A stretch of 64,000 nucleotides of DNA from Calditrichota bacterium (GTDB taxonomy: Bacteria > Calditrichota > Calditrichia > Calditrichales > Calditrichaceae). Shown here in pieces: positions 3,936 through 53,217 of the stretch. The stretch lies in assembly GCA_024278755.1 (NCBI GenBank), contig JAJRSO010000042.1, positions 1 through 64,000 of the forward strand, written 5' to 3'. Each line of letters begins with the position of its first letter. The stretch's first letter is position 1. The notes beneath the pieces are model-generated. The model worked only from the letters and a program-made list of their open reading frames with translations. It ran no database searches and was not told the origin of the DNA. The position numbers and the translations under genes were made by a program.

Positions 3936-4988
3936 TTAATCGGCATTCTTAATACGGATATGGTTGGAAAAAATCCAGGCTTTTCCGTTTTTCCGTATTT
4001 CTACCCTGTAAATTCCCGGTTCCGTTATTCTAAATTTTATTCCGTCGCCTTCTTTTCGCCCCACTTCATGTCCGTTAAAAATTAACCTTGTTTCTGCTTT
4101 TACAGGATTTTCAACAAATACATTCGCCTCATTCTTTAAAACAAGCGTTCCGCCCATCTCTGCTCTGTCCGAATCGTTTTCCGCCCAAAAACGAAAAGCG
4201 GAGGCGTTGCCGAGATAACTGTGTGAAACAAAACAATGAGCTTCACGAATAGCGCCGAACACCATTTGCAACGCTTTTTTATAGTCCTCTTTCGGAAGTT
4301 TCTGCGATGTCAGAATATGCGTGCGAATCGTACGGAATGAGACTTTATAGCGAAAAATCCGCACTGAAAACATGCCTAGCATTCGGTGAATATGCCCATG
4401 TGCATCCACCCCTCCGACGCCGGCGATTTTTCGTTTCATGTTTCCCTCGTCCCATCGCGCCAGGGTCTCTTTTTTGGGTGAAACAATGGAACGTCTCGGA
4501 TGCATAGCCCGCCAAAATTTATTAAAATGCGTAAGGCCTTCCATCCATTCAGACATCTGGTTCCAGATTTCTATCCCGTCGTAACAATCCGAATTCCACA
4601 GAGTCCAGGGATAAGGCGGATAGGCCTCAATATGTGTACGCGATTCATCCGGATGCGCAATGATTCCGAAACCGCCCTGATTACGCACCTGACATACATA
4701 ATCGGCTGCGGGAACTCGATGATTAACCGGCCTATCAATATTAAAAGCAAGATAGTGGTTTTTATCATCCTTGTCATTCAGTTCACTGCCGATACCCACC
4801 AGCACATTATCGTACCAGCCTTCCAGTCCGTCCAGTTTTGGCTGGAGGGTATTATGGTCGCTCATAAGCAAAAAATCGGCTTTTAGCTCGTTGGCGATGG
4901 CGGCAATTTCCGGAATGGATTTCTGGCCGTCGCTGTATGTCGAATGCACATGGATAATGCCGCTATAATGAAAGCGTTTCGCTGGCAT
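3936..4988 (-). CDS. PHP-domain metal-dependent phosphoesterase
   Basis: A 350-residue protein with the four PHP metal-binding motifs: HVHSTYSDG (13-21), SDHN (43-46), GSE (67-69) plus HPDE (112-115), and VDAHGH (194-199). PHP proteins hydrolyse phosphoester bonds with a multinuclear metal centre; the substrate here is unknown. Residues from about 275 to the end look like a beta-rich C-terminal domain often attached to stand-alone PHP proteins. There is no signal peptide, so it is probably cytoplasmic. The ATG lies two bases after the stop of the YfiM-like gene, making this the last gene of the ridA operon. Confidence 0.85.
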   Translation of the reverse strand: MPAKRFHYSGIIHVHSTYSDGQKSIPEIAAIANELKADFLLMSDHNTLQPKLDGLEGWYDNVLVGIGSELNDKDDKNHYLAFNIDRPVNHRVPAADYVCQVRNQGGFGIIAHPDESRTHIEAYPPYPWTLWNSDCYDGIEIWNQMSEWMEGLTHFNKFWRAMHPRRSIVSPKKETLARWDEGNMKRKIAGVGGVDAHGHIHRMLGMFSVRIFRYKVSFRTIRTHILTSQKLPKEDYKKALQMVFGAIREAHCFVSHSYLGNASAFRFWAENDSDRAEMGGTLVLKNEANVFVENPVKAETRLIFNGHEVGRKEGDGIKFRITEPGIYRVEIRKNGKAWIFSNHIRIKNAD

Positions 4989-4990
4989 AG

Positions 4991-5368
4991 TTAATCCCGA
5001 CTTACTAAAAACGCACCGATACAGGCGCCGATAAGATTGGCGGTTAAATCTTTATATGAAAAACGATTATCCGGTTTGGAGTCGTCCCAAATTTCTTTTA
5101 CGGCGCCCAGGGCAAAGGTAAATCCAAACCCAAACCGTAGCGCTTTATTTTGGGAAAAACCGACGCGCCGACGTAAATGTATACTGAGCGCACTCATAAA
5201 CATCATACTCCCGGTAACATGCAATGCTTTATCCAGCGCCAGCCAATGGTCCGTTTTTTGTTCAGTTGACGTATGCAATGTATCCGACGACAGACTAAAA
5301 CCTCCGGCTAACACCGGTACGGAGGGAAAAAACAAGGCCGTAAATAGTAATATTTTAAAAACGGACAT
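4991..5368 (-). CDS. YfiM/DUF2279-like envelope protein
   Basis: About 125 residues. It starts with a hydrophobic signal segment (MSVFKILLFTALFFPSVPV) and contains the DUF2279/YfiM pattern: DKALHVTGSMMFM, then a second hydrophobic stretch, KEIWDD, and FSYKDLTANLIGA. The role of this small membrane-associated family is not known. I prefer the ATG at 5368 because GGAG stands a few bases upstream; a start at 5401 in the same frame would overlap the previous gene by 47 bases. With the chosen start the overlap is 14 bases, which suggests coupling with the DUF5683 gene. Confidence 0.7.
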   Translation of the reverse strand: MSVFKILLFTALFFPSVPVLAGGFSLSSDTLHTSTEQKTDHWLALDKALHVTGSMMFMSALSIHLRRRVGFSQNKALRFGFGFTFALGAVKEIWDDSKPDNRFSYKDLTANLIGACIGAFLVSRD

Positions 5369-6098
5369 AGAACTCCAGAGCCAATTTATCCCTGCCGACA
5401 AAGGGCATTACGGTCAGTTTTATGGCTTTGTCAAATTGATACAGGTAAGCGCCCGCATAGGAATCGGCCAGGGTCATCAAATAGGCAATACCAAAATACC
5501 AGCTATAGCGGGAACGTTCTTCCCGCAGCGCCGAACCGCCTTCGCTTTGATAAGCCAGGTCGGCTTCCCTGATTTTATAAATTAAATAGGCGTCGGTTAA
5601 GAAATAGCCGGCCGCCTTCCAGTAAGAGCCGTTATAAATCTGTCCCCAGCCCGGTAACATAGCCGAACGGGAAACAGCGCCCCAGGGCGATTTAAGCGGT
5701 TTATCATCCAGTAAACCGCCCTGCCAGCCGGGATTGTCGCTATGCGTTGCGGCGTCCAGTACATTTAGTCCGTGTAAAAAAAGAGCGGCATATAAATTAA
5801 TTTTAAACATCTTTTCGTGCTGTGCCGAGGTATACTTTTTATAATGGTAATAATGAAAAGCGCTTCGGTAATAATACAGAGACGATGAAAAATAAAAAAA
5901 CAGCGATGTGGAGAGTCGCTCCTGATTGACCTGCCCCCACCCGGGTACAAACAGCGATTTAATTACCTCTGTTTTATTAACAAGGTGTACGACCGTATCT
6001 TTTTTCATTATCTCCTGTGCCTCTGATTTTAACGGAATAAAACAGAGCAACAGAATAAATCCGGATACGGCGATACGATGTTTTTTAATGGTTAACAA
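5355..6098 (-). CDS. DUF5683-family envelope protein
   Basis: A 247-residue protein with an N-terminal signal segment followed by two copies of a LFVPGWGQ / AMLPGWGQIYNG motif, the hallmark of DUF5683 proteins common in Bacteroidota and relatives. Hydrophobic helices near residues 60-75, 105-120 and 165-180 suggest membrane association. Function is unknown; the family is often near cell-envelope genes. The likely start is a TTG overlapping the lipid-kinase stop by seven bases; no ATG is well placed. It lies between the DagK-like and YfiM-like genes and probably shares their transcript. Confidence 0.75.
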   Translation of the reverse strand: MLTIKKHRIAVSGFILLLCFIPLKSEAQEIMKKDTVVHLVNKTEVIKSLFVPGWGQVNQERLSTSLFFYFSSSLYYYRSAFHYYHYKKYTSAQHEKMFKINLYAALFLHGLNVLDAATHSDNPGWQGGLLDDKPLKSPWGAVSRSAMLPGWGQIYNGSYWKAAGYFLTDAYLIYKIREADLAYQSEGGSALREERSRYSWYFGIAYLMTLADSYAGAYLYQFDKAIKLTVMPFVGRDKLALEFYVRF

Positions 6099-6970
6099 AT
6101 TAATTCTATGCTTTTAGGTAAAATTTTGATATCTAATTCTTTCATATTCAATGAGAGCAGTTCTCCGTCGGCATGGACGGCAAAACCTTTTTCCGAGCGA
6201 ATGCTTATCTGTTTCGTCCGTACCATTTCTACGCGGGGGTCTTCTTTATGTTTCCCGCTGTATACTTTTATTAAATTCTTAATTATAGAACGTTTAGGCA
6301 TATTCTGAATCAGACACAGGTCCAGCAGGCCGTCATCTATTTGGGCGTCCGGCGTCAGATAAAATCCTCCGCCCAGCGATACACCGTTGGCAACGGTTAT
6401 CAAAAAATAGTTTTTTTGATAGGTGGCGCCATTAAAGGAAAGCTCCACTTCCTGTGGTTTAAAATTTATAAGTGTGTGCAAAACAGCATATAAATAAATG
6501 GCATTCCCTCGTAAGCGGGTCACCTGATTGCCCGTATGCACGGCCCAGGCGTCAAATCCTACCCCAACGCCATTATGATAAATCCGATTGTTCACTTTTG
6601 CCAGGTCAATCATTCTTCGTTTATTGCGCAGAAGAAGCGCCAGTGATTTTTCCATATCCACAGGAATGGATACCGCACGCACGAAATCATTGCCGCTGCC
6701 CACCGGCAAAATCCCCACGGCCGCCTGCGATCCGACTACTCCGTTCAGGATTTCCTGAAATGTGCCGTCGCCGCCTACGGTAACGATAACCGCAAAATCT
6801 TTGGCAGCCTTTGCGGCTAAATCCTGCGCATGCATCGGTTTATCGGTATACACAAGCTGATAATCGAGTTTCAGGGGGGAAAGCATTTCTTCCAGCCTTC
6901 GGCCGAAGGCTTTTCCCTTCCCTCTACCGGAAGCCGGATTTACAATAAAAAAATAATTCAACGCGGTCAC
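6092..6970 (-). CDS. Diacylglycerol/lipid kinase family protein
   Basis: About 292 residues of the DagK/YegS/sphingosine-kinase fold. The nucleotide-binding site is visible as VNPASGRGKG near the N-terminus and VGGDGTFQEILNG, followed by LPVGSGNDFVRA. These enzymes phosphorylate diacylglycerol or similar lipids with ATP and feed phospholipid recycling. The start is uncertain. A GTG at 6970 avoids overlap with ridA; a TTG at 6997 overlaps it by 22 bases; a TTG at 6961 is also possible. It is cotranscribed with ridA upstream and the DUF5683 gene downstream. Confidence 0.85.
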   Translation of the reverse strand: MTALNYFFIVNPASGRGKGKAFGRRLEEMLSPLKLDYQLVYTDKPMHAQDLAAKAAKDFAVIVTVGGDGTFQEILNGVVGSQAAVGILPVGSGNDFVRAVSIPVDMEKSLALLLRNKRRMIDLAKVNNRIYHNGVGVGFDAWAVHTGNQVTRLRGNAIYLYAVLHTLINFKPQEVELSFNGATYQKNYFLITVANGVSLGGGFYLTPDAQIDDGLLDLCLIQNMPKRSIIKNLIKVYSGKHKEDPRVEMVRTKQISIRSEKGFAVHADGELLSLNMKELDIKILPKSIELIC

Positions 6971-6975
6971 GCCGG

Positions 6976-7359
6976 CTACCGCTTTATCGCGATGCAATCA
7001 ATTTCAACCAGCACATTTTTTGGTAAACGGCTTACTTCAACGGTCGACCGGGCAGGAAGTCCTTCTCCGAAAAATTCGGCATACACTTCGTTAACAGTGC
7101 CGAAATCATGCATATCTTTCAGGAAGATAGTCGTTTTAATCACATTATTCAGCCCGCTTCCGGCAGATTCTAACACCGCTTTCAGATTTTGAATCACTAA
7201 ACGTGTTTGTTCGGCAGCGCTTCCGGAAAGCAGTTGTCCCGTCTCCGGGTTAATTGCAATTTGCCCGGAAGTAAAAATAAATCCGTTTGCCTCAACCGCT
7301 TGCGAATATGGCCCAATCGGTTCGGGCGCCTCTTTGGTATAAACACTGTTCTGCCGCAT
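6976..7359 (-). CDS. ridA: RidA/YjgF/UK114 enamine/imine deaminase
   Basis: A 127-residue protein with the family sequence from end to end: IGPYSQAVEANGFIFTSGQI near the N-terminus, the central NLKAVLESAGSGLNNVIKTTIFL, and ARSTVEVSRLPKNVLVEIDCIA. RidA hydrolyses reactive 2-aminoacrylate and related enamines produced by PLP enzymes, protecting other enzymes. The length is typical. A strong AAGGAAGGAAAAGG ribosome-binding region precedes the ATG. It is the first gene of the operon running down to the PHP gene; the promoter must lie in the intergenic region towards dnaA. Confidence 0.93.
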   Translation of the reverse strand: MRQNSVYTKEAPEPIGPYSQAVEANGFIFTSGQIAINPETGQLLSGSAAEQTRLVIQNLKAVLESAGSGLNNVIKTTIFLKDMHDFGTVNEVYAEFFGEGLPARSTVEVSRLPKNVLVEIDCIAIKR

Positions 7360-7480
7360 CCTTTTCCTTCCTTTTTATAAAAGATGAAAATTAGTACAGC
7401 GTTATTTTAATGTCAAGTAAGCATCCGTGAATCGTGGAACAGTTTCGATACTCTTTTTTAGTATATTTGTCTTAAATATA

Positions 7481-7603
7481 TGAGTTCACTATAAAAACCA
7501 CGAATTCCACGCATTTACACGAATCTATTCAATGTAATTTCAATAAAAACAATCCGTGTCTTTCTGTGGCAATCAGTGGCTATGCCATTTTAGACTGGAC
7601 TCA
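7481..7603. mobile_element. MITE-like palindromic element, copy 1 (123 bp)
   Basis: It begins TGAGTTCACTATA and ends TAGACTGGACTCA; the ends are imperfect inverted repeats (10 of 13 positions). The interior is also an imperfect palindrome built on CCAC / ACACG and CGTGT / GTGG blocks. TATA flanks it on both sides (7477-7480 and 7604-7607), consistent with a 4-bp target duplication. A second copy at 46511-46623 is nearly identical apart from a 10-bp deletion. No transposase is encoded, so movement would need one supplied elsewhere. Confidence 0.7.
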
Positions 7604-7825
7604 TATATAAAAAACGGTGCATCCTTTTATAACGTATCTTCCCGGCAATTTCTTTTTTAGTCGTATGAACGCTTATTTTCAATGATTAAACCACCGCTCG
7701 GTTTATTCTTTTGTTTGTTTAAATTTATCCATGTTTATCTGTGCGTTTTCACGGCTAAGATTCCTTTTTAAAATATCCTGTGCAAGAAAAGTGCAGAATA
7801 AAAAAAGATGCCAAGAACGAAATAA

Positions 7826-7934
7826 ACGCAAAAAAAATACGAAAAGAAAACGAGTAAGAGTATGCGCCCTGTTCTGAACTTTTTCCGGCGAAACATTGCC
7901 TGTTCTGTAGTTTAAATAGAAGCAGTATCAGTCG
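7826..7934. repeat. Dispersed intergenic repeat family 2, copy A
   Basis: Matches 60756-60857 in the same orientation. Shared blocks are CGCAAA, then AAAATACGAAA, GAAAACGA, a TTTTTC(C/T)GGCGAA block, and CAGTTTAAATAGAA / TAGTTTAAATAGAA near the end. The copies differ by scattered substitutions and small indels, so they are old. Non-coding; function unknown. Confidence 0.6.
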
Positions 7935-8102
7935 TCCCTTTTTTCTTTTTTTTCATTTTCATTTTCCCTATTTTCATTTTTACTCACACGATTCGACAAA
8001 ATATCATTTTTTTTAAAACAGATAAAAAAAGTAAAATATTTTTCTGCTTTACTTGCATTTAACGGAAACAATATTGAACTTGAATTAACGACGAAATACA
8101 AT

Positions 8103-8306
8103 TGTGGACAAACTGTGGATAACAGCGATCTATTCACATACCGTACTACCCCGGAAGAATTTGCCCGCTTGACAAATCCCGGGAAAAGGATCACAACTCC
8201 TTAAATAACAATTAATTAGATCTTAAATATTAACCTTTCGGATAGCGTTGATATTATATGTAAGTCTATTTTTTTATTGAAGTTAATCATTATATTTTGT
8301 GGATAA
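8103..8306. promoter_or_regulatory. DnaA-box cluster upstream of dnaA (candidate oriC or autoregulatory site)
   Basis: Three 9-mers match the DnaA box TTATCCACA in the same orientation. TGTGGATAA occurs exactly at 8114-8122 and 8298-8306, and TGTGGACAA (one mismatch) at 8103-8111, directly next to the first. The surrounding DNA is very AT-rich, as expected for an unwinding element. The last box ends 24 bases before the dnaA ATG. Many bacteria have oriC next to dnaA and use these boxes to repress dnaA. The number of boxes is modest, so this may be only an autoregulatory region. Confidence 0.55.
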
Positions 8307-8330
8307 ACATCTACCTGTTAAGGAATTTTA

Positions 8331-9731
8331 ATGGATTCAAATCTTGCTGAAGAGCTCATCTCTACCCCCGAAATTGTCTGGAAAGAAGTACAGGAAATCC
8401 TTAAAAACAATATCAATATCCGCAGCTATAATACCTGGTTTGCGCCAACCAAAGGATTAACCTTTGAAGACGGGCATATCAAGATTTTAGTGCCAAACCG
8501 TTTCTTTTGCGAGTGGATTGACAACCATTACAGCAAACTGGTAAAAGATGCGTTGGCACAAACCCTTGGTGAAAGTATCGGGCTACGTTACCATATCAAA
8601 GATTCCGCTCTACCGGTATCTCCCTACCAAGATCAAAAAGACTGGCATCAGGAAAAACCACTACCCAAAACCGAACCGAAAAAAACCATAGCCTCTCCTT
8701 TTTATTCGCGAATTAACGAACGCTATACGTTCGAGAATTTTATTGTGGGTGACAATAACAATTTTGCACAGGCAGCCGCAAGAGCCGTAGCGGATTCGCC
8801 GGGAAAAACCAATTACAATCCGCTTATCGTCTATGGCGGTACCGGACTTGGCACAACACACCTAATTCAGGCCATCGGGAATTTAGCCATCCAAAATAAT
8901 CCCCGCACAAAAGTGTTTTATGCTTCCAGCGAAACATTTACGACCCATTTTATTACTTCTATTCAGCAAAATAAGGTTTCGGATTTCTCCGCTTTTTACC
9001 GTTCCGGGGATATTTTGCTTTTGGACGATATTCAGTTCTTTTCCAACAAGGGAAAAACGCAGGAAGAATTTTTTCATACCTTTAACGATTTACATCAAAA
9101 CGGGAAACAGATTGTATTGACATCCGACCGACCAATTAACGAATTAAAAGGGCTCGAGGAACGGCTGATTTCCCGGTTTAAATGGGGACTGATTGTCGAT
9201 ATTCAGCCGCCGGATTTCGAAACCCGCCTGGCCATTCTGCGCAATAAATGTGATGAAAGCGGATTGATTATCCCCGGAGACATTTTAGAATACCTGGCTG
9301 TTAATCTGATGGACAATGTTCGCGAACTCGAAGGCGCCCTTACAAAAATTATGGCCCAGGTAACCTTTACCTCTGCCGAACCCAGCCTCGAACTGGCCCG
9401 TTCCATCGTTTCCGAAATAGCAAAACCGGATCGTTCTATTTTAACCATCGAAACAATTATGGAACATACGGCCAAACTGTTTGATATTCCCGACGATCAG
9501 CTACGGGCTAAGACACGCCGCAAAGATGTGGTGCGCGCCCGGCAGGCGGCCATGTATCTGGCCAAACAATTGACCAGCCATTCACTGGTAACCATCGGGC
9601 TGCATTTTGGCGGCCGCGATCATTCCACTGTTATTCATGCCATCGAGAGCGTCTCAAAAACGTTAAAATCGGATCCTGCCTTCAGACAGCAGATCGATTC
9701 GCTTAAAAAGCATCTGGAATACAACCGCTAA
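8331..9731 (+). CDS. dnaA: Chromosomal replication initiator DnaA with altered Walker A
   Basis: 466 residues with all DnaA domains: an N-terminal interaction domain (1-85), a linker, an AAA+ domain starting near YTFENFIVG (132-140), and a C-terminal DNA-binding domain with the signature GGRDHSTV. Walker B (ILLLDDIQFF), the RLISRF arginine-finger box and NVRELEGAL are intact. The Walker A loop reads GGTGLGTTH at 169-177, so the catalytic lysine is threonine (codon ACA at 8853-8855). This should impair ATP binding unless it is an error or this is a specialised paralogue. AAGGA precedes the ATG at suitable spacing. dnaN is not next door; the next gene is convergent nfo. Confidence 0.93.
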   Translation: MDSNLAEELISTPEIVWKEVQEILKNNINIRSYNTWFAPTKGLTFEDGHIKILVPNRFFCEWIDNHYSKLVKDALAQTLGESIGLRYHIKDSALPVSPYQDQKDWHQEKPLPKTEPKKTIASPFYSRINERYTFENFIVGDNNNFAQAAARAVADSPGKTNYNPLIVYGGTGLGTTHLIQAIGNLAIQNNPRTKVFYASSETFTTHFITSIQQNKVSDFSAFYRSGDILLLDDIQFFSNKGKTQEEFFHTFNDLHQNGKQIVLTSDRPINELKGLEERLISRFKWGLIVDIQPPDFETRLAILRNKCDESGLIIPGDILEYLAVNLMDNVRELEGALTKIMAQVTFTSAEPSLELARSIVSEIAKPDRSILTIETIMEHTAKLFDIPDDQLRAKTRRKDVVRARQAAMYLAKQLTSHSLVTIGLHFGGRDHSTVIHAIESVSKTLKSDPAFRQQIDSLKKHLEYNR

Positions 9732-10576
9732 CTTTTGCCGCGCATCGATTTAAGCAACTCGATATTTTTCATAAAAACGGTATCTCCTCCCGGCACTTCT
9801 AAAATACCGGGAGTCTCTTTAAATTGGTTCATTCGCATCAATAGACTAAAACTTTCCAAACCGATAAACCCTTCTCCGACAGGCGCATGACGATCGCGAA
9901 AGCTATTTAGCTCCTTCTTCGAATCATTCAAATGAAAAGCCTCTATGGTCTCTATTCTAAACGTATCTTCCATTTTTTTCAGGGTTTTCTCCCAGCCGGC
10001 GGCGCTCCGGATATCATAACCGGCGGCAAAGATATGACAGGTATCCACACACACGCCCAGTTTGGATTGTTGCCCGCTCCGTTCTATTATTTGTTGCAAA
10101 TGTTCAAAACGACTGCCAATCCCCGTTCCCTGCCCGGCGGTCGTTTCCAGTAAAATTTTCACCTGCGCATCATACGAAGCCAGCGCCCGGTTAATCGATT
10201 CCGCTATAACGCCTATCCCCCAGTCCGATCCCTTCCCGCCATGCGCACCGGGGTGAATGACCAAACCGTCAATCCCCAGTACATCACAGCGTTTCAATTC
10301 CTCTAAAAAAGCCCGGCGTGATTTTTCCAGTTTTTCCCGTTCCTGTGCGCAAAGATTAATTAAGTAAGAAGCATGCGCGATTACCGGCGTCTCTCCAAAA
10401 TGATAATGTTTGCGTTTTATTTGGTATTCCTGCACCGTATTTGGATCATATGCTATGGATTTCCACTGACGCTGATTTTGGGTAAATATTTGTATTGCTT
10501 CACATTGCAGTATGCTTGCGCGTTCAAAGGCTTTCTGAATTCCGCCGGCAACAGATACATGACAGCCTATCTTCAT
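9728..10576 (-). CDS. nfo: Deoxyribonuclease IV (endonuclease IV, AP endonuclease)
   Basis: 282 residues of the TIM-barrel, tri-zinc AP endonuclease family. Family motifs are in order: GCHVSVAGG at the start, HPGAHGG, LLETTAGQG, VCVDTCHIFAAGYD, FHLNDSK, and RHAPVGEG. It cleaves DNA 5' to abasic sites in base-excision repair. The ATG at 10576 is chosen because GGAG lies seven bases upstream; a TTG at 10588 would include that ribosome-binding site in the coding sequence. Its stop overlaps the end of convergent dnaA by a few bases. Confidence 0.93.
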   Translation of the reverse strand: MKIGCHVSVAGGIQKAFERASILQCEAIQIFTQNQRQWKSIAYDPNTVQEYQIKRKHYHFGETPVIAHASYLINLCAQEREKLEKSRRAFLEELKRCDVLGIDGLVIHPGAHGGKGSDWGIGVIAESINRALASYDAQVKILLETTAGQGTGIGSRFEHLQQIIERSGQQSKLGVCVDTCHIFAAGYDIRSAAGWEKTLKKMEDTFRIETIEAFHLNDSKKELNSFRDRHAPVGEGFIGLESFSLLMRMNQFKETPGILEVPGGDTVFMKNIELLKSMRGKS

Positions 10577-10684
10577 CTTTTTCTCCAAATATTAATTAAA
10601 TATTTACATGCTTTTGACGATAAATAAACAAATTAAAAAGCAATGCTTATTTCTCTCGCCCAGTTTAATCAGGAGTTAAATCCG

Positions 10685-13171
10685 ATGCAAGAAGATGCGT
10701 CCCTGCTAAAATCTATTATCCAGAACTCCTCGGATATTTTTTTCCGACTAAATCTAAAAAGTGAAATCTTATTTATAAATCCCTCCATTCAAAGCTTTAT
10801 CGGCCAATCCCCTGCGGCGCTTAACGCGGTTCCTTTAAAATCGTTATTGGTACTTCCGCAGGAGTTTATCCTGTTTAAAAACGAATTGGTTCAGACGCAA
10901 AGAGTTCGGAACTACGAGCTCTTGTTTAAACACGCCGATGGGCGGAAAATGTTTGGCAGTATCAATGCCTATCTTCTTAAAAAAGAAGATAAAACATTTA
11001 TCGAAGGCAGTCTTCGCGATATTTCCGAGCAAAAAAAAATGGAAATGGAATTTCGGAAATCCTACAATGCAACCCAAAAATGGCAGCAATATTTTGAAAT
11101 TATTTACGAAATTACCGAGCAGATCAATAAATACCGTGAGATGGAAGAGGTTGGGAACGCGGTAACGCAGGGTCTGGCCAAAATTATGATGTTTGACGCG
11201 TATCAGCTCTATATCTATAACGATGAGCAAAAATACCTGCAACCGGTTTTTTCAACGGAAACATATAAACACAACAGAATCATTTCCAATACGCCGGTTC
11301 CTATTGACAAAGGAATTCTCGGCCGTATTTTCCGCGCTGCCCAAAATGAAATCATCGAAAATATAAGAACCGATCCCGATGTTTTCTATTTACCGGACGA
11401 AGAACAGATTGATGCTTCTCTCATTGCTTCCCCGCTCATTATCGAAGGACGAACCATTGGTGAAATTACCCTGTTAAAAGAAGGGATCGGCCAGTTCCGC
11501 CGCGATGAGTTACGTATTTTGTCCATTATCGGCCGTCAGGTTGCGGTTGCGCTAGAAAACGCCCAGCTTAATGCGCGGTAAATTGAGAATCGCAGAAAAG
11601 CCGAACAGGCCAATCAGGCTAAAAGTGAATTTTTGGCAAATATGAGCCACGAAATTCGAACACCGATGAATGCCATAATCGGTATGGGTGAACTTTTGCT
11701 GGACACTGATATAAATGAGGAGCAGGAAGATTTTTTAATTACCATCCGCGAAAGCTCCTATGCACTTTTATATTTGATAAATGATATTCTGGATTTTTCC
11801 AAAATTGAAGCCGGTAAACTGGATTTAGTGGAAGAAAACTTCAATCTGCACACCCTGCTGGAAATAAGCCTGGAAAGTCTGGCCGCCCGGGCCGAAGAAA
11901 AGGGGCTGGAACTGGCTCTGTATCTGGACCCGGATATTCCTACCGGAATTCTTGGCGATTCCGGACGGATACGCCAGATATTAATCAACTTGCTCGGTAA
12001 CGCCATTAAATTTACAGCCGAAGGCGAAGTAATATTATCCGCTAAGCTCCTAAAAGCGGATAAAAAGCAGTTGGATATTTATTTTTCGGTTCGGGATACC
12101 GGTATCGGAATCCCCGCGCAAAAGACAGGTTTAATCTTTGATAAATTTACACAGGCCGACGGCACAACCACCAGGCAATACGGCGGAACAGGGTTGGGAC
12201 TTGCCATTTCGCGCCAATTGGTAGAGCTGATGGGTGGTAAGATAGGCGTTTCCAGTTCACCGGGCAAAGGCAGCACCTTCTATTTTAATCTTGTGCTAAA
12301 AAAGGGAGAGGACTTTACGGAAGAGTTGCTTCCGGTAGCCGACCTATTAAATTTGCCCGTTCTCATTGTGGATGACAACGCCACAAACCGGCTTATTCTG
12401 GAAAAAATTCTTACCAATTGGAAAATGAAACCGCTTAGCTGTAGCAGCGGTACAGATGCGCTGAAGCTTTTAAATATAAAAGCCGCATCGGATGAATTTA
12501 TTCCCTTGGTTCTACTGGATATGCAAATGCCCGAAATGGACGGCGAAACCACCGCAAAAAAAATTTTAAACACGCCCGCCTTAAAAGAGACAAATATCAT
12601 CATTCTTACTTCCATGGGAAAACGAGGCGACGCAAAGCGATTGAGTAAAATGGGAATTAAACGGTACCTTACAAAACCGGTTAAACAATCGCAGTTATAC
12701 AATGCCATTCTTACGGTTATGTCGAAAAAGGCGGTAACGAAGCATGCGCAAAAGGCCGCTATAAAACAAGCGGACCATGTAATATCAAAAGAAACACCGG
12801 TAAAAATACTGTTGGCGGAAGACAATCCTATTAACCAGCGTGTGGCCGTTAAGATTCTTGAGAAAAAGAACTATACCGTTGATGTGGCCGAAAACGGACA
12901 AATGGCCATGCAGGCTCTGGAAAAAGATCAATACGATGTGGTATTAATGGATGTACAAATGCCCGAAATGGACGGACTAACAGCCACCAAAGCGATTCGA
13001 AAGCTTAATTCGGCAGTTAAAGATATTCCCATTATTGCCATGACCGCCAATGCCATGAAAGGTGATGAGGAAATGTGTCTCGAATCCGGAATGAATGATT
13101 ATATTTCAAAACCGTTTAAACCGGTAGAACTTTACGCCATTATCGAAAAATGGAGTCAAAAAGGGCGATAA
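10685..13171 (+). pseudogene. Hybrid sensor histidine kinase (PAS-GAF-HisKA-HATPase-REC-REC) split by an in-frame TAA
   Basis: One continuous reading frame of 828 codons except for a TAA at 11579-11581 (codon 299). Before it lie a PAS domain (SIIQNSSDIFFRL) and a GAF domain. After it the frame reads [21 protein letters not shown] and then the [11 protein letters not shown] phospho-acceptor box, an HATPase domain (N-box [13 protein letters not shown]1 DTGIGI, G2 GTGLGLAI) and two receiver domains with phospho-acceptor Asp in [11 protein letters not shown] and [11 protein letters not shown]. The linker and H-box are the normal sequence for such kinases, so this is a single gene interrupted by a substitution. 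Two separate proteins are possible using a TTG at 11633, but no ribosome-binding site is evident. AGGAG supports the ATG at 10685 over one at 10643. Confidence 0.85.
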
Positions 13172-13336
13172 AACGAATACCTTAAATTCGAAGGTACAAA
13201 TAACAAAAATCAAAGAAATCTCAAACAAAAATTACCTTACACAGGCATGTTTAAATTTTGGAATTTGGTATTTTTTGTTGTTTGTCGCTTGTATTTTGAC
13301 GTTTCCTAAATTTTACTTTAGGAATTTGGGTTATAT
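13172..13336. repeat. Palindromic intergenic sequence between convergent genes
   Basis: The left part (GGTACAAATAACAAAAATC region) and the right part (GTATTTTTTGTTGTTTG region) are imperfect reverse complements. A small hairpin, CCTAAA / TTTAGG, follows at about 13305-13322. The structure lies between the convergent kinase and cytochrome genes and could act as a two-way terminator. It resembles widespread AT-rich palindromic relics in bacterial intergenic DNA. Confidence 0.4.
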
Positions 13337-13675
13337 TTATTCACGGAATTTATGCCGGCTCACATAATCGGCCAGACGGCTAAGCGTGTCGCCTCGTAAG
13401 TGTTTAAAGGCCGGCATCATCAGGGCGCCATTTTTTACAATGTCTTCAATATGCAGTGTCTTAATGGATTCGTCCGCCAGAGCCGGAAACAGCCCCTTTC
13501 CCTCACCCTGCACTCCGTGACAGCCAGAACAGGCTTCGCGGTATATTTGTCCGGGCTTATCCGTAACAGGAATATAGGTACTCTTAAGTGTGGATAAAAA
13601 CATATAGATGGCCGTTACAATGACAATTGTAATAAGCACGATAAAAGGTATCCATTTTTTTATAGTTTGTTTCAT
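13337..13675 (-). CDS. Membrane-anchored monohaem cytochrome c
   Basis: 112 residues. A single N-terminal hydrophobic segment (about 9-29) anchors or exports the protein. A class I cytochrome c fold follows, with the haem-attachment motif CSGCH at about 49-53, typical GCHGVQGEGKGLFPALA context, and a likely Met ligand in GALMMPAFKHL. It would carry electrons on the outer face of the cytoplasmic membrane. It stands alone between the convergent kinase and the deacetylase gene, so its partner cannot be inferred. Confidence 0.88.
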   Translation of the reverse strand: MKQTIKKWIPFIVLITIVIVTAIYMFLSTLKSTYIPVTDKPGQIYREACSGCHGVQGEGKGLFPALADESIKTLHIEDIVKNGALMMPAFKHLRGDTLSRLADYVSRHKFRE

Positions 13676-13741
13676 TCCCCGCTCCGTTTTTTTATTCTTT
13701 ACAGTAGTTCCTTATTTCTGCCGCAGAAAACGCAAAGATTC

Positions 13742-14569
13742 TTATAATAATTCCTCCGGCAGGACAGACTGGGCAAGAGGGACCTGCTTACTTAACCCCA
13801 TCAAACGCTGATAAAGCGGCGTCGCCCGTCCACCAAGCTGCAGCAGCCAGTCACGAATAGCAATGGGCGATTGATAAGCGGCTTTCAGTTTTTTGTGGAT
13901 TATACGCTGCGTGTCAAAACGATACACATTAAAACGGCGCAAGGCCATATTTTGCTCTTCCGGCGGAGCGGCGCCCAGGTACAACGAGGCCATAGCATAT
14001 TGATAACCTGCCTGCTTAACCGCCTGTATTACCCGCGCATTAAAACGCCCGAACGGGTAGCAAAGCGCCGTAACCGGAATACCGGTAATTTTTTCGAGCA
14101 GGATTCGGCTCTGTTTTAATTCCTTGTTCAGGGATTCGGAATTCAGAGATGTAAACGGTACATGGTTAAGCCCGTGCGCCGCAATTTCATGCTCTGCAGC
14201 ACTTAGAGCGGCAATCTGTTCACCGGATAAATGTAAAAATTTTTTGCTTCCTAACTGTATATCCCAGTCATTTGTTTTACCGATATACAAAGCCGGCATA
14301 AAGATAACCGCTCTAAAACGGAAGTGGGATAATATGGGAAAAGCATGTTCGTAAACCGAAGCATAGCCATCGTCAAAGGTTATCATAACAGGTTTGTCCG
14401 GCAGGGTTTCCGATTTGGATACAGATTGAAAAGTAACGGACGTAAACCCGTGTTCGGCAAGATATTGCATATCCGTTAAAAAATCATCGGGATGGCGAGC
14501 GGTAATGCCAATATCGCTTTTAATTTCTATCTTGTGGTAATTAAGAACAGGGATGCGGGAGAAGTCCAT
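13742..14569 (-). CDS. Polysaccharide deacetylase (NodB-type carbohydrate esterase 4)
   Basis: 275 residues. The NodB core is clear: VLNYHKI near the N-terminus, MITFDDGYASVYEHAFPIL with the catalytic Asp pair, AAHGLNHVPFTSL supplying the zinc His residues, and LCYPFGRFN. CE4 enzymes remove N-acetyl groups from chitin-like, peptidoglycan or capsule sugars. There is no obvious signal peptide. It starts four bases from the stop of the Ald-like gene, so it is probably the last gene of the translation operon. Target polymer unknown. Confidence 0.87.
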   Translation of the reverse strand: MDFSRIPVLNYHKIEIKSDIGITARHPDDFLTDMQYLAEHGFTSVTFQSVSKSETLPDKPVMITFDDGYASVYEHAFPILSHFRFRAVIFMPALYIGKTNDWDIQLGSKKFLHLSGEQIAALSAAEHEIAAHGLNHVPFTSLNSESLNKELKQSRILLEKITGIPVTALCYPFGRFNARVIQAVKQAGYQYAMASLYLGAAPPEEQNMALRRFNVYRFDTQRIIHKKLKAAYQSPIAIRDWLLQLGGRATPLYQRLMGLSKQVPLAQSVLPEELL

Positions 14570-14572
14570 AGG

Positions 14573-15700
14573 TCAGAGATTCAGTTCCAACAGCTCAAAA
14601 ATGCTGTAAAATTCATGTCCAAAACGTTCCGAAAAGCTGCGGCTGGTCACTTTTCCCTTATACATGCAAAGGGCCGGAAGCAGACCGGGATATTCAATTA
14701 GCGTCTCTTTTAGATCATTAAGCGCCAGCGATTTTAAAACGTTTAATATTTTTTTGGTAATCACCCGGCTGGCCGTTACGGGAACCGAAGCCGAAATATT
14801 AGGTACGGAATAATAAATAATTCCATCAATGGTATAAACGGGTTGTTCTAAATTCGAAAGATAGGAGGTTTCCAATATGGCCGTTTGATTAATGGAAGTA
14901 TCTATGACGACGCTTCCCTCTTCCATTAAGCGAATTGTATCGGCGTCAATTTTTATATCAATCCCTTTTTTCAAAGAAAAAACCGAAATTATCAATACAT
15001 CGCTTTCCGGAAGAACCTCCCGTAGTTTTTCTTCGGAATAGAGGTTTACTTCCGCCTCTTTGAATTCTTCCTGCAAGGCGGATATTTTTTTTTCTTTAAG
15101 CCCAAAAAGACACACCTTTGCCCCAACCTTTAACGCGGCCTGTGCGGCGGTACGACCAACTTTCCCGGCGCCCACAATAACGACCTGCGCCGGCTTACTC
15201 AGTTCTGTGGCGGGTAATAATTTCCCCTTCCCGCCGGCCGAAACCGTAAGCAACTGCGCCGCCTGATTGATAGCAAGATGTCCGGCAATTTCACTCATGC
15301 TGTTTAACAGCGGATAGCCGCCTTCCTCGTCCTGAATTAATTCGGCGCTTATAACCGAAACCTTCGTTTCGAGCAGTGTACGGAAACGGTCTTCCCGGTA
15401 GCGAAGCATGTTATAAAAGGAGATGAACATATGCGAATCGTTAAGCAGCTCAAATTCGATGGGTTGCGGGGGAGTCATTTGCAACAAAAGCTGCGCTTTA
15501 TCCATAACCTTTTCCATGGCCGGCAGGATAACGGCGCCGGCGCGTTCGTACTGAATATCGGGAAAACGGCAGATTTCGCCGGAACCGCGCTCCACAAAAA
15601 CTTCAATTCCGTTTTTAACCAGTACTTTCACACCTTCCGGCGTCAGCATTACACGGCCTTCGGTGGATTTGAGTTCTTTTAATAAACCGACTTTAAGCAT
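14573..15700 (-). CDS. Alanine dehydrogenase / transhydrogenase-alpha family protein, divergent active site
   Basis: 375 residues. The N-terminal substrate domain begins like alanine dehydrogenase (VGLLKELKSTEGRVMLTPEGV), and the NAD-binding Rossmann loop is VVIVGAGKVGRTAA near 175. The family's catalytic Lys, normally in an LKV-type strand, appears as Gln (LLLQMTPP), and the catalytic His of the next loop appears as Asn (SFYNML). The protein may therefore not be a standard alanine dehydrogenase. The gene overlaps the M16 protease gene by eight bases and belongs to the rpsO-pnp operon. Lysine-pathway or PntA-like paralogues are alternatives. Confidence 0.75.
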   Translation of the reverse strand: MLKVGLLKELKSTEGRVMLTPEGVKVLVKNGIEVFVERGSGEICRFPDIQYERAGAVILPAMEKVMDKAQLLLQMTPPQPIEFELLNDSHMFISFYNMLRYREDRFRTLLETKVSVISAELIQDEEGGYPLLNSMSEIAGHLAINQAAQLLTVSAGGKGKLLPATELSKPAQVVIVGAGKVGRTAAQAALKVGAKVCLFGLKEKKISALQEEFKEAEVNLYSEEKLREVLPESDVLIISVFSLKKGIDIKIDADTIRLMEEGSVVIDTSINQTAILETSYLSNLEQPVYTIDGIIYYSVPNISASVPVTASRVITKKILNVLKSLALNDLKETLIEYPGLLPALCMYKGKVTSRSFSERFGHEFYSIFELLELNL

Positions 15701-16925
15701 GGGGTATTATCATCACTGTGTTAAAGTTTTTCATAATAAATATTTTTTGCGCCGTTTCCAATAAAAATCTGGAATTTATTTGTTCTATTTTTTCAATGGA
15801 TTCGTCTATGTTTATTATACGCTGATAAAATATTTCATTTTTTGCAAGGCTCGACATCCGCCGCTGCATGCTTTCCAGTCCCAATAAAATAGTTCCGTTT
15901 AACTGGCTTTTAATCTTATTTACAACCGATTCTTTAAGTGGCGTTTCGCATAAATGCTGTAATTCCGTTGTAAGAATTTTTAATGCTTTTTGCGCTTTTC
16001 GTACATCCGTTCCGACATAAAAACTGAAAACCCCGGTATCTTTGAAAAAATCTACATTGGAATAAACCGAATAAGCCAACCCGTATTTTTCGCGAATGGC
16101 CTGAAAAAGACGCGAACTCATTCCGCCGCCTAACCAGACGTTTAAAGCAATAATCGGGAAACGTTCTTCGGCTGTATAGGAAAAGCTCTCAACGCCGGTA
16201 CAGATATGACACTGATTGACCCCGTCCTGAATTTCGTGCCGGATATTTACAGCGGTAGGCGGCTTTTTAAAACGGCAGGCTTTTCCTGTCGTGGAAAAAA
16301 CAAAACTACGTTCGGCCATACGCAGCACCGCATCGTGGCGTACATTTCCAACAATACTTACTACCATATTTTTCGGCGTATAAAAGTTCTGCCAAAAATC
16401 CAGCAAGGCGGCGCGGTCAAAGGTTCGTACAGAACTTGCCGTTCCTAAAATGGGGAAACCCATTGGGTGATTCGGAAATAGTTTTTCCTGAAACACGTCA
16501 AAAATATAATCTTCGGGCGTGTCTTCCACAGCATGAATCTCTTCGAGAACCACTGCTTTTTCGTGAAGGATATCTTTTTCACGAAAGAGGGGCCGGCAAA
16601 CCAAATCGGCTAAAACGCGGATTGACTTTGAGAGTTGCGTATCCAGAGAGTGGGTATAAAAAACGGTGTGTTCTTTACTGGTGTAGGCGTTTAAACTACC
16701 GCCGGTTTCTTCGAGGGAATGGGCAATTTTAAGGGCACTGAATTTTTCAGTACCCTTAAAAACCATATGCTCCAAAAAATGAGCGATACCCTTGTTGCGG
16801 GTTGTTTCGCAGCGGCTGCCCGCTTTCACCCACACGCCCGCAGATACCGACCGCACACCGGGAACGAATTCACTAATGACGGTCAGGCCATTTTGCAGGA
16901 CTGTTTTATTGATTGTAGACGGCAT
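15693..16925 (-). CDS. M16-family zinc metalloprotease (insulinase/processing-peptidase type)
   Basis: 410 residues with the inverted zinc-binding motif HFLEHMVFKGT near residue 48 and the downstream EEIHAVEDTPEDYIFD supplying the third metal ligand. The second half (GGGMSSRLFQAIREKYGLAYSVYS) is the inactive M16 C-terminal lobe. Length and order match the single-chain bacterial processing-peptidase subgroup often found directly after pnp (YmxG/MppA type). It degrades peptides or processes proteins in the cytoplasm. The ATG follows the pnp TGA by three bases. Confidence 0.9.
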   Translation of the reverse strand: MPSTINKTVLQNGLTVISEFVPGVRSVSAGVWVKAGSRCETTRNKGIAHFLEHMVFKGTEKFSALKIAHSLEETGGSLNAYTSKEHTVFYTHSLDTQLSKSIRVLADLVCRPLFREKDILHEKAVVLEEIHAVEDTPEDYIFDVFQEKLFPNHPMGFPILGTASSVRTFDRAALLDFWQNFYTPKNMVVSIVGNVRHDAVLRMAERSFVFSTTGKACRFKKPPTAVNIRHEIQDGVNQCHICTGVESFSYTAEERFPIIALNVWLGGGMSSRLFQAIREKYGLAYSVYSNVDFFKDTGVFSFYVGTDVRKAQKALKILTTELQHLCETPLKESVVNKIKSQLNGTILLGLESMQRRMSSLAKNEIFYQRIINIDESIEKIEQINSRFLLETAQKIFIMKNFNTVMIIPHA

Positions 16926-16928
16926 AGG

Positions 16929-19055
16929 TCAGGCAGATTTTTCCTCGTTGCCCGACTCTGTTTCTTTTTTCTGTTTTAATAAAAAGGCTTTACGACTAAG
17001 GCCGATTTTACCGTCATTACCGATTTTGGTAACGATCAGATCAAGCACATCGCCTTCTTTAACGACGTCTTCCACCTTATTCGTACGTCCGATTTCCAGC
17101 TCGGAAATATGCACCATGCCTTCTTTACCCGGCATAAATTCTACAAAACATCCAAAATCTTTCACCCGTTTTACCGTGCCTTTATAGGCTTTGCCCATTT
17201 CGGGTTCGGCAATCAGGCTCTGAATATAATTACGCGCAAAATCCGCCGCCTGCATATTGGGTGAAGAAATCAGGACGCGTCCTTCATCGTCAATATTGAT
17301 ATCCAGATCCGGTCCGCCTTCTTCGATAATACCGCGGATGGTTTTGCCGCCCGGTCCGATAACCGCGCCGATTTTTGAAACCGGAATTTTGATTTCAATA
17401 ATCCGTGGCGCAAACTCGCTCATTTCCGACTTTGCAGAATCGATGGCCTCGGCCATTTTACCCATAATATGCTTACGTCCTTCTTTGGCCTGCGCCATCG
17501 CCTGAGCCATAATCTCAGACGAAATACCGTCAATTTTTATATCCATCTGAACGGCGGTAATGCCTTTTTCCGTTCCGGCCACTTTAAAATCCATGTCGCC
17601 AAGATGATCTTCGTCACCAAGGATATCGGAAAGAACGGCAATTTTATCACCCTCTTTAATCAATCCCATGGCGATACCGGCCACGGCGCTTTTAGTGGGC
17701 ACTCCGGCGTCCATTAAGGACATAGAACCCGCGCAGACCGTTGCCATCGAAGAAGAACCGTTCGATTCCAACACTTCCGAGACGATGCGGATGGTATAGG
17801 GGAAATCTCCGTTTGCCGGCAGAACCGGTTTTAAAGCGCGCTCGGCCAGATTGCCGTGTCCGATTTCCCGGCGGCTGGTGCCGCGCATCATTTTGGCCTC
17901 ACCGGTACAGAAGGGCGGAAAATTATAATGCAGCATATAGGCTTTTTTGCTTTCGCCTTCAATGGCGTCGATAAACTGCTCATCCGATTTACTGCCAAGG
18001 GTTACCACGCCAAGCGCTTGTGTCTGCCCGCGTGTAAACAGGGCCGAGCCATGCGCCCGCGGCAGCAGATTGGTTTCGCAGGTAATTTCACGGATATCTT
18101 TAGGGCCGCGTCCGTCGAGACGGAGATTTTCGTCGATAATCATGGCCCGAACAATTTTCTTTTCGATGTCGTGCAGAATCGCGCCGATTTGTTTTTCCGA
18201 CTCGGGATATTCTTCCGCAAGCTTTTCAATCACTTCGTCTTTAACCGCTTTTAAGGCTTTGCCGCGGGCTGTTTTTTCCTGAATACGCACGGCTTCTTTA
18301 GTGCCGGCCAGACCGAATGCGTTTACTTTATCTTCAAGACCCTCGGGTAGTATTTTAGCCGGTACGTCCCGTTTGGCTTTATTCACTTCGGCGGCCAGTT
18401 CCTTTTGCAAATCAATTAATTTACGAATGGCGCCATGGGCATGTTCAATCGCCTCGAGAAGCGTTTCTTCCGAGACCTCTTCCGCTTCGCCTTCCACCAT
18501 CATAATGGATTCTTCCGAACCGGCAACCACCAATTCCAGTTCTGCTTCTTTAAGCTGCGAAATGGTAGGATTGATGACAAAAGCGCCGTCAATTTTGCCA
18601 ACGCGAACGGTGGCAATCGGCCCTAAAAAGGGAATGTCCGAAACCATGAGGGCGGCGGAAGCGCCGAATCCGGCAATAACGTCGGCGTCGTTTTCACGAT
18701 CCATCGAAAGCACATTGGCGATAATTTGCGTTTCGGAATTATAATCATCTTCAAATAAAGGCCGTATGGGTCTATCAATCAGGCGGGATGATAGGATTTC
18801 TTTTTCACTGGGACGTCCTTCTCTTTTAAAGAAACCGCCCGGAATTCTTCCTGCCGAATAGGTTTTTTCACGGTATTCCACACTAAGCGGAAACCAGTCA
18901 CGGGTGGTATCTTCTTCGGGAGCGCCCACAACTGTTACCAGCACCATGGTATCGCCGTAGCGAACCAACACGGCGCCGTCGGCCTGTTTGGCCATTTTCC
19001 CGGTTTCGACCGAAAGCGTTCTACCTTCCAGCTCAATTGATTTTTTAATAAACAT
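16929..19055 (-). CDS. pnp: Polyribonucleotide nucleotidyltransferase (PNPase)
   Basis: 708 residues, full length. Two RNase PH domains flank a helical linker; GGFFKREGRPSEKEIL and the FTRGQTQALGVVTLG block are characteristic. A KH domain (KIGAVIGPGGKTIRGI) and an S1 domain (GTVKRVKDFGCFVEF) follow. PNPase degrades RNA 3' to 5' with phosphate and can add tails. The order rpsO then pnp is conserved in many bacteria and fits the long operon here. Confidence 0.97.
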   Translation of the reverse strand: MFIKKSIELEGRTLSVETGKMAKQADGAVLVRYGDTMVLVTVVGAPEEDTTRDWFPLSVEYREKTYSAGRIPGGFFKREGRPSEKEILSSRLIDRPIRPLFEDDYNSETQIIANVLSMDRENDADVIAGFGASAALMVSDIPFLGPIATVRVGKIDGAFVINPTISQLKEAELELVVAGSEESIMMVEGEAEEVSEETLLEAIEHAHGAIRKLIDLQKELAAEVNKAKRDVPAKILPEGLEDKVNAFGLAGTKEAVRIQEKTARGKALKAVKDEVIEKLAEEYPESEKQIGAILHDIEKKIVRAMIIDENLRLDGRGPKDIREITCETNLLPRAHGSALFTRGQTQALGVVTLGSKSDEQFIDAIEGESKKAYMLHYNFPPFCTGEAKMMRGTSRREIGHGNLAERALKPVLPANGDFPYTIRIVSEVLESNGSSSMATVCAGSMSLMDAGVPTKSAVAGIAMGLIKEGDKIAVLSDILGDEDHLGDMDFKVAGTEKGITAVQMDIKIDGISSEIMAQAMAQAKEGRKHIMGKMAEAIDSAKSEMSEFAPRIIEIKIPVSKIGAVIGPGGKTIRGIIEEGGPDLDINIDDEGRVLISSPNMQAADFARNYIQSLIAEPEMGKAYKGTVKRVKDFGCFVEFMPGKEGMVHISELEIGRTNKVEDVVKEGDVLDLIVTKIGNDGKIGLSRKAFLLKQKKETESGNEEKSA

Positions 19056-24371: not shown

Positions 24372-25634
24372 CTATTCCTCATCATTCTCTTCTGTGTTTT
24401 CTTCTTTAGACGCCGCCTTTACCGCGTCCCATATTTTTTCGGCAGACTTCGCGCCAATACCTTTTAATTCCAGCAGCCCTTCTATTCCCATATCCACAAT
24501 TTCGTCTTCGTACAGAATATCTGCGTCTAAAAGTTTTGCTTTAAGATTATCAGGAATACCTTCTATCTCTTCCACGGGAACCGATACTTTTGTACTTTCC
24601 TGTTCATATTCGGATACCTTAATTGGCTCAATCTGATAACCGGTTAACTGCGAAGCCAAACGTAAGTTTTGTCCGTTACGGCCAATGGCCAGAGACATCT
24701 TATCATCTTCTACAATAACAACGGCCATTTTTTCTTCTTCGTTTACAATTACCTTAATCGGCTTCACCGGCGCCATCGCGCGTGAGATATAGAGTTCCGG
24801 TTCGGTGGCATAACTGATAATATCAATTTTTTCATTATTCAGTTAACGCACAACCGCCTGAATACGCACCCCTTTCATTCCCACACAGGCGCCCACAGGA
24901 TCTATCCGGCGGTCGATGGACTGTACGGCAATTTTCGAGCGGTCGCCGGCTTCGCGCACCACCTCTTTTATTTCAACAATCCCGTCGTATATTTCGGGCA
25001 CTTCCAGCTCAAACAGACGAATTAAAAATTGTTTATCGGCGCGGCTTACGATAATTTCCGGGCCTTTTCCCTGGCTGCTTACCTCTTTTACCAGACAGCG
25101 CACCGTATCGCCGCGGCGTAGACGCTCGTTATAAATCTGTTCTTCGCGGGGTAAGAACACTTCGGTTTTATCCTGATTAATGTAAATACCGCGTTTATGG
25201 ATCTGATGGATATCTCCGATAATGATTTCTCCGATACGTCCCTGATATTCTTCCACCAAACGCTCACGTTCAAAATCACGGATTTTCTGATTCAGGTTCT
25301 GTTTCGCCGTTACAATCAGGCGACGACCAAACGCCATGGGATCGAGCACTTCCACGATTTCTTCACCCACTTCAGCATCTCCATCAATTTTCAGAGCATC
25401 TTCCAATGTAATTTCCGCAACCGGGTCTTCTACGTTTTCCACGACCATTTTTTCCTGAAAGATTTCGATATCGCCCTTATCGATATTTACGATTACATCA
25501 AAATTTTCATCCGTTCCGTATTTTTTTACAATCAGTGACCGAAATATATTTTCGAGAATATCCCGCAAATTTTCTTTGCCGATTCGTTTGTCTTTTGCAA
25601 TTTGAGTGATAGCTTCAATAATTTCGCTATTCAT
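24372..25634 (-). CDS. nusA: Transcription factor NusA, frame interrupted by an in-frame TAA
   Basis: A continuous 420-codon NusA frame broken only by TAA at 24843-24845 (codon 264). The N-terminal RNA-polymerase-binding domain, S1 domain and the start of KH1 (DPVGACVGMKGVRIQAVVR) precede it. In the same frame LNNEKIDIISYATEPELYISRAM follows in full agreement with KH1, then KH2 (MSLAIGRNGQNLRLAS) and a C-terminal helix-hairpin-helix (LLELKGIGAKSAEKIW). The family normally has Glu where the stop lies, one base change away (GAA). No ribosome-binding site supports a separate C-terminal gene at 24776. NusA is usually essential, so sequence error or readthrough must be considered. It lies between rimP and infB as usual. 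Confidence 0.92.
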
Positions 25635-51978: not shown

Positions 51979-53016
51979 TTATCCTTCATTTTCAACATCA
52001 AGAGGCAGCGTAATAATAAATTTCATCCATTTGGTTGGTTCGCTTTCTGCCACAATGCTGCCTTTGTGCATTTCAATTATTTTTTTTACCGTAAATAAAC
52101 CGATGCCCACATTTGTTTTTTATTTTGAATTGTGGAAACGGGAAAACTTATCAAATATTCTTCCTAATTTCGTGCCCGCCAACCCGCTGCCTTCATTAAA
52201 TATGGATATGACAAAGCGGGACGGTTCTCTTTTTATTTCAATTTCAATATCGGTACCGGCGTATCCGTACTGAATGGCATTTTGAATAAGGTTACGGAAA
52301 ATCAGCTGGAAAAAACGTTCATCACCAAAGTAGATATTTTTATCTTCGTTAGCCGATATTTTTACCTTCATTACTTTTTGTTCAAGACGCAACTCCAGTT
52401 CATTTATTATCGGATCGAGGCTATTTTCCACTATATCAAATATTTTTCGGTCGATTTCCAGCTTATCCTGTTCCAGCAGAGACATACTGAAAAGTGTTTC
52501 CACCAATCCGAACAATCCTCTCGTAAGGCGATCCAGATGCTTGTTTATTTCGAGAATGCTTTCTACACTACCTTCTTCGAGACGTTTTTTTATAATCCGG
52601 TTGTATCCGTAAATAGAAGTCAGGGAATTTTTAAATTCGTGGGTGACAACGCTCAGCAAATCGCGATAGTTTTGATTGGCTTCTTTCAGCTCTTTTCGGG
52701 CCGTAGCATTTTGTTTTATCAGGGCTGCCTGCGTACCAAACAAAATTAGTGAACGTATATGTTCTCTTGTTTTATTATCAAGCTGTTCCAGTTTTGTTAC
52801 GGATAAATCGACTGCGGGGATCTGATCTAACCGCCGCTGGTAATCATCCAAGATGTGCAACAATAATTCTTTAGGCTTCGATTCGTTGCTTATCAGTTCT
52901 AAACCTTTGTCGTAAATATCCCGATATTCGGAGAGGCCAATATTTACATCCGCCAGTTGCTCAAACTCCAGCTCTTTTAATTCGTCTTCCGTCATTTCCT
53001 TTTTCCGTTTTGTCAT
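51979..53016 (-). pseudogene. Sensor histidine kinase, frame interrupted by an in-frame TAA
   Basis: The frame from ATG 53016 gives a coiled N-terminal region (about 1-115), a phospho-acceptor box THEFKNSLTSIYGY, an N-box LIFRNLIQNAIQYG and G1 FNEGSGLAG. It hits TAA at 52120-52122 (codon 299) after FDKFSRFHNSK. In the same frame sequence continues KTNVGIGLFTVKKIIEMHKG (the G2 box) and ends LPLDVENEG with a stop at 51979-51981, giving a normal-length kinase of 345 codons. A single base change explains the stop. Without readthrough the product lacks its G2 box and would be inactive. No membrane segment is seen, so it is cytoplasmic. Confidence 0.83.
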
Positions 53017-53217
53017 CTCAGACAAGTCTTTTATTTATAAGTGCTTTCGGCAGCTATTATAAAATAGTTAGAAAAAAATGACCCCTGTCACAAAGAGCAA
53101 TGCACTCCCCTGTCAGAAACATTGGAGTATACTAATGAAATGGAATATTTCTTTTGACCCGTATATGGAGAATAACACCAATAGGAGGAGATTTAAAAGC
53201 GGTTAGGCGCCGATACC

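Follow-up and report, generated by a model that had tools for sequence, protein, structure and literature searches.

The window, a 64,000-nucleotide stretch from a draft assembly of a Calditrichota bacterium, carries the dnaA gene, encoding a chromosomal replication initiator of 466 amino acids, at positions 8331–9731 on the forward strand. The predicted product scored 528.9 bits against the DnaA equivalog model TIGR00362 (cut-off 343.9) over residues 17–462. A second dnaA, for which the preliminary description had recommended a search, was not found: PF00308 matched once in the whole assembly (3.94 Mb, 79 contigs, 95.8% complete), and the gene is thus the sole copy there. In its full-length match and single copy, the gene resembles known DnaA as represented by TIGR00362, PF00308 and the solved chains 8btg and 2z4r, and it shares with known DnaA the AAA+ domain, the C-terminal DNA-binding domain and DnaA-box-like sites upstream. 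A pattern scan placed two such sites, both reading TGTGGATAA, at 8114–8122 and 8298–8306 on the forward strand. Both boxes lie in the non-coding interval 8024–8330, immediately 5' of dnaA, which is conserved in the sister genome and which we regard as a candidate replication origin.

The protein as assembled departs from known DnaA in one respect, the replacement of the Walker A lysine by threonine. Its motif reads GGTGLGTTH, without the lysine of the GxxGxGKT consensus. Codon 175 (8853–8855, forward strand) is ACA, preceded by GGC (8850–8852) and followed by ACA CAC, while relatives have a lysine codon, AAA or AAG, at this place; the base that differs is 8854. In phmmer alignments Thr-175 fell on the Walker A lysine of both 8btg and 2z4r, so the preliminary description had read the codon and its coordinates correctly. 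It had also stated that the other DnaA motifs were intact. Indeed, Walker B (LLLDDIQ), sensor I and the arginine-containing segment RLISRFKWGL are all present in the translation and align with 8btg. The reading frame is otherwise undisturbed, and the change at codon 175 amounts to a single base. As we attribute the missing lysine to a miscall, we name the gene by homology and make no claim, from the assembled sequence by itself, that it encodes a working ATP-dependent DnaA.

The passages of PMC4971506 that deal with this residue in E. coli DnaA describe two substitutions, K178Q and K178R. Neither protein bound ATP or ADP, and neither rescued a dnaA-deficient strain. Like the change in the window, these are Walker A substitutions at the equivalent position; unlike it, they are laboratory mutants, and threonine is not one of the two replacements described in those passages. 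Judging by its chemistry, threonine at this position should do no better than K178Q or K178R.

We compared the codon in two sets of dnaA loci, one of 60 relatives and one of 80 loci, with many of the nearest loci common to both; in the larger set these nearest loci carried the titles Calditrichaceae, Caldithrix or Calditrichota. Codon 175 was AAA or AAG in every aligned relative, from about 37% to 94% identity, and ACA occurred in the window's copies only. The nearest relative, a sister of the same genus with a dnaA sharing 94% protein identity and 84% DNA identity, also has lysine. The orthologue alignment proposed in the preliminary description thus speaks against a real ATP-independent DnaA. 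A DNA pattern for the threonine motif hit one of 40 genomes of the phylum, namely the source genome itself, and a looser version hit none of 111 genomes of another phylum. The corresponding lysine pattern hit 22 of the 40, being narrower than the alignment and missing distant DnaA genes. With lysine in all aligned relatives and the threonine motif unique among the 40 genomes, the threonine is, on this comparative evidence, more than chance variation in the position. The gene is also syntenic with the sister's sole dnaA match, on sister contig 3, within surrounding homology that extends from 3951 to 18101.

The same comparison with the sister revealed how the gene has been evolving. The two dnaA sequences differ at 213 bases, 182 of them third positions, giving dN of 0.027–0.032, dS of 1.06–1.09 and dN/dS of about 0.03. 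The 27 amino-acid differences lie mostly in the N-terminal part and linker, at 188–192 and at the far C-terminus. Within residues 136–187 K175T is the sole difference, and within residues 193–441 the sole difference is D317E; no compensating change was seen in the AAA+ core relative to the sister or to solved DnaA. Because the AAA+ domain is nearly unchanged, the ATP-binding domain is, as far as sequence comparison can tell, under strong purifying selection in this lineage and free of any sign of adaptation to the loss of ATP. Had this DnaA been freed from ATP binding, one would expect loosening elsewhere in the protein.

The odd codon in dnaA has companions. Within the window, TAA stands in frame in the gene for a hybrid histidine kinase (10643–13171; stop at 11579–11581, forward strand), in the KH-domain region of nusA (24372–25634; stop at 24843–24845, reverse strand) and in the HATPase_c domain of another histidine kinase (51982–53025; stop at 52120–52122, reverse strand), each time where relatives have glutamate; for the two kinases this holds for every relative in the alignment. 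Five more came from about 517 kb of the remaining genome, where detection was non-exhaustive and methods varied by case. They comprise a TAG in UvrA (L219:6127; glutamate, from one relative), stops at glutamate in a thiolase (L213:8578), in oligopeptidase B (L190:9183; residue taken from alignment to solved homologues) and in a PorV-family protein (L187:9325; two distant relatives of 34–36% identity), and a TGA at glycine in a PLP-dependent enzyme (L224:13395; again via solved homologues). In-frame stops at conserved residues therefore affect at least eight genes, seven at glutamate and one at glycine. All eight were taken to be G-to-T as read in the coding direction, the one-base substitution that turns a glutamate or glycine codon into the stop observed. 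With this genome's codon usage, G-to-T accounts for 25% of the opportunities for nonsense changes, and eight of eight has a probability of about 1.5e-5 if the types are equally likely.

NusA is essential in model bacteria where this has been tested. As the gene is expected to be essential here too, this stop at least can hardly be taken for biology. Any annotation would divide nusA into two at this TAA. Elsewhere in the genome (L182:2396), an in-frame TAA interrupts a Mu Gam-like protein, possibly a decayed prophage gene.

Finding such stops required homology; our first homology scan was full of antisense shadow reading frames, and matches were judged by eye. As a control we took 400 kb from another member of the family whose genome is complete. 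The one clear example there was a peroxiredoxin with TGA in place of the codon for its peroxidatic cysteine, recognisably a selenocysteine; a small DUF4143 case was uncertain. Reference-free scans for split reading frames did not clearly separate the assembly from the control by number (113 versus 95, and 41 versus 28, per Mb).

Both kinds of change fit the error classes of Illumina sequencing, which we assume to be the origin of the assembly. The A–C and G–T pairs are the two commonest substitution pairs in HiSeq data, at 29.2% and 26.8% (PMC3334598), and the bases of each pair share a laser (PMC3334598; PMC3156955). The A-to-C at 8854 and its G-to-T companions both fall within these classes, although the errors described in those two papers are mainly read-level and would persist into a consensus only where coverage is low or uneven. 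The stop spectrum is blind to the dnaA change, as A-to-C cannot create a stop; stops and dnaA change thus share the instrument class but not the substitution. The preliminary description had left an either/or, a single-base error like the stop anomalies or a real ATP-independent DnaA or paralogue. Its first half is supported: the stop anomalies do exist, extend beyond the window, include a gene expected to be essential, consist solely of G-to-T changes and belong with the common Illumina pairs. Its second half is not, given lysine in the relatives, a single syntenic orthologue and an ATP-binding domain that appears strongly constrained.

Radical A-to-C or T-to-G changes private to this genome at conserved sites include K175T, at a site where 18 other groups agree on lysine. 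The aspartyl-tRNA synthetase (L221:2729–4660) has arginine at residue 296 where eight relatives have isoleucine, by a T-to-G change, the complement of A-to-C; on this alignment it is a further candidate miscall. Private changes of these two types occurred at 13 of 6389 sites here and at 5 of 5107 in the sister, both small counts. We also looked for a broad surplus of private missense changes and found none, the figures for conserved sites under a stricter cut being 22 of 3365 here and 21 of 2804 in the sister. With a rate no higher than the sister's, the assembly is not broadly error-ridden; we estimate at most about one error per kilobase, a level at which errors are still possible.

We consider it very probable that the threonine codon stems from an error of base calling or of the consensus, inferred for this base, in which A at 8854 was read as C. 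On this account the base would have been miscalled when the genome of an uncultured Calditrichota-type bacterium was assembled in draft, and the living organism would most likely possess an ordinary ATP-binding DnaA with its Walker A lysine. A miscall is favoured because the change is unique, the rest of the gene is intact and constrained, dnaA is single, and implausible transversions occur elsewhere in the same assembly. We rank a private deleterious mutation second and a working DnaA without the lysine a remote third.

The mutation placed second would be a real and recent one, confined to the sampled strain or part of its population: either the protein has a weak hold on ATP and the lineage suffers for it, or a minority allele was assembled. 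An otherwise intact frame with a single-base change is what such a mutation would leave, and yet we hold it to be unlikely. To judge from the E. coli mutants as described in those passages of PMC4971506, a sole DnaA that had lost the lysine for good should leave the cell inviable or close to it, and the mutation would have to coincide in one assembly with nonsense changes in NusA and other proteins.

That the strain truly carries threonine in its only DnaA and replicates, ATP binding through the lysine being dispensable in this lineage, is very improbable. Slightly more doubtful still is a functional lysine-free protein that either works independently of ATP or contacts the phosphates through another residue. 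It would agree with the single dnaA copy, the constraint on the gene and the DnaA-box-like sites upstream. However, lysine is present in the sister, whose protein is 94% identical, the other ATP-site motifs remain present with no compensating change in the AAA+ core, and the threonine motif appears in no other genome of the 40 from the phylum and in none of the 111 from another. Were such a DnaA real, it would overturn the rule that DnaA cannot initiate replication unless it binds ATP through this lysine.

We give almost no credence to a non-essential paralogue, with the true dnaA absent from the draft. Genes can be missing from a 95.8% complete assembly, as shown by the lack of an RpoB (PF00562) match, probably an assembly gap; but location and gene order are those of the sister's only dnaA match, 94% identical within the homology at 3951–18101, and synteny thereby largely refutes it.

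We give equally little credence to the notion that the odd codons are no errors at all, whether TAA and TAG are recoded as glutamate or a natural mutator produces G-to-T and A-to-C changes. Recoding came into consideration because seven of the eight stops stand at glutamate. However, ordinary genes, dnaA among them, terminate with TAA; one of the eight stops is a TGA at glycine; and the change from lysine to threonine would also go unexplained. Among the tRNA loci scanned, a part of the 46 tRNA matches, none showed the anticodon UUA or CUA. As for a mutator, mutagenesis by oxidised guanine has a spectrum resembling these G-to-T and A-to-C changes, but under a mutator conserved sites should have gathered more private changes, and no such rise was seen.

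Read as an artefact, the threonine codon is a warning against taking single-base calls in this draft, including the nusA and uvrA stops, as biology without the reads. As a separate observation, the genome contains a selenocysteine tRNA (L256:911–1002), and in a relative within the family TGA stands where a peroxiredoxin has its active-site cysteine (L202:15747); both observations suggest that selenoproteins are used in this family.
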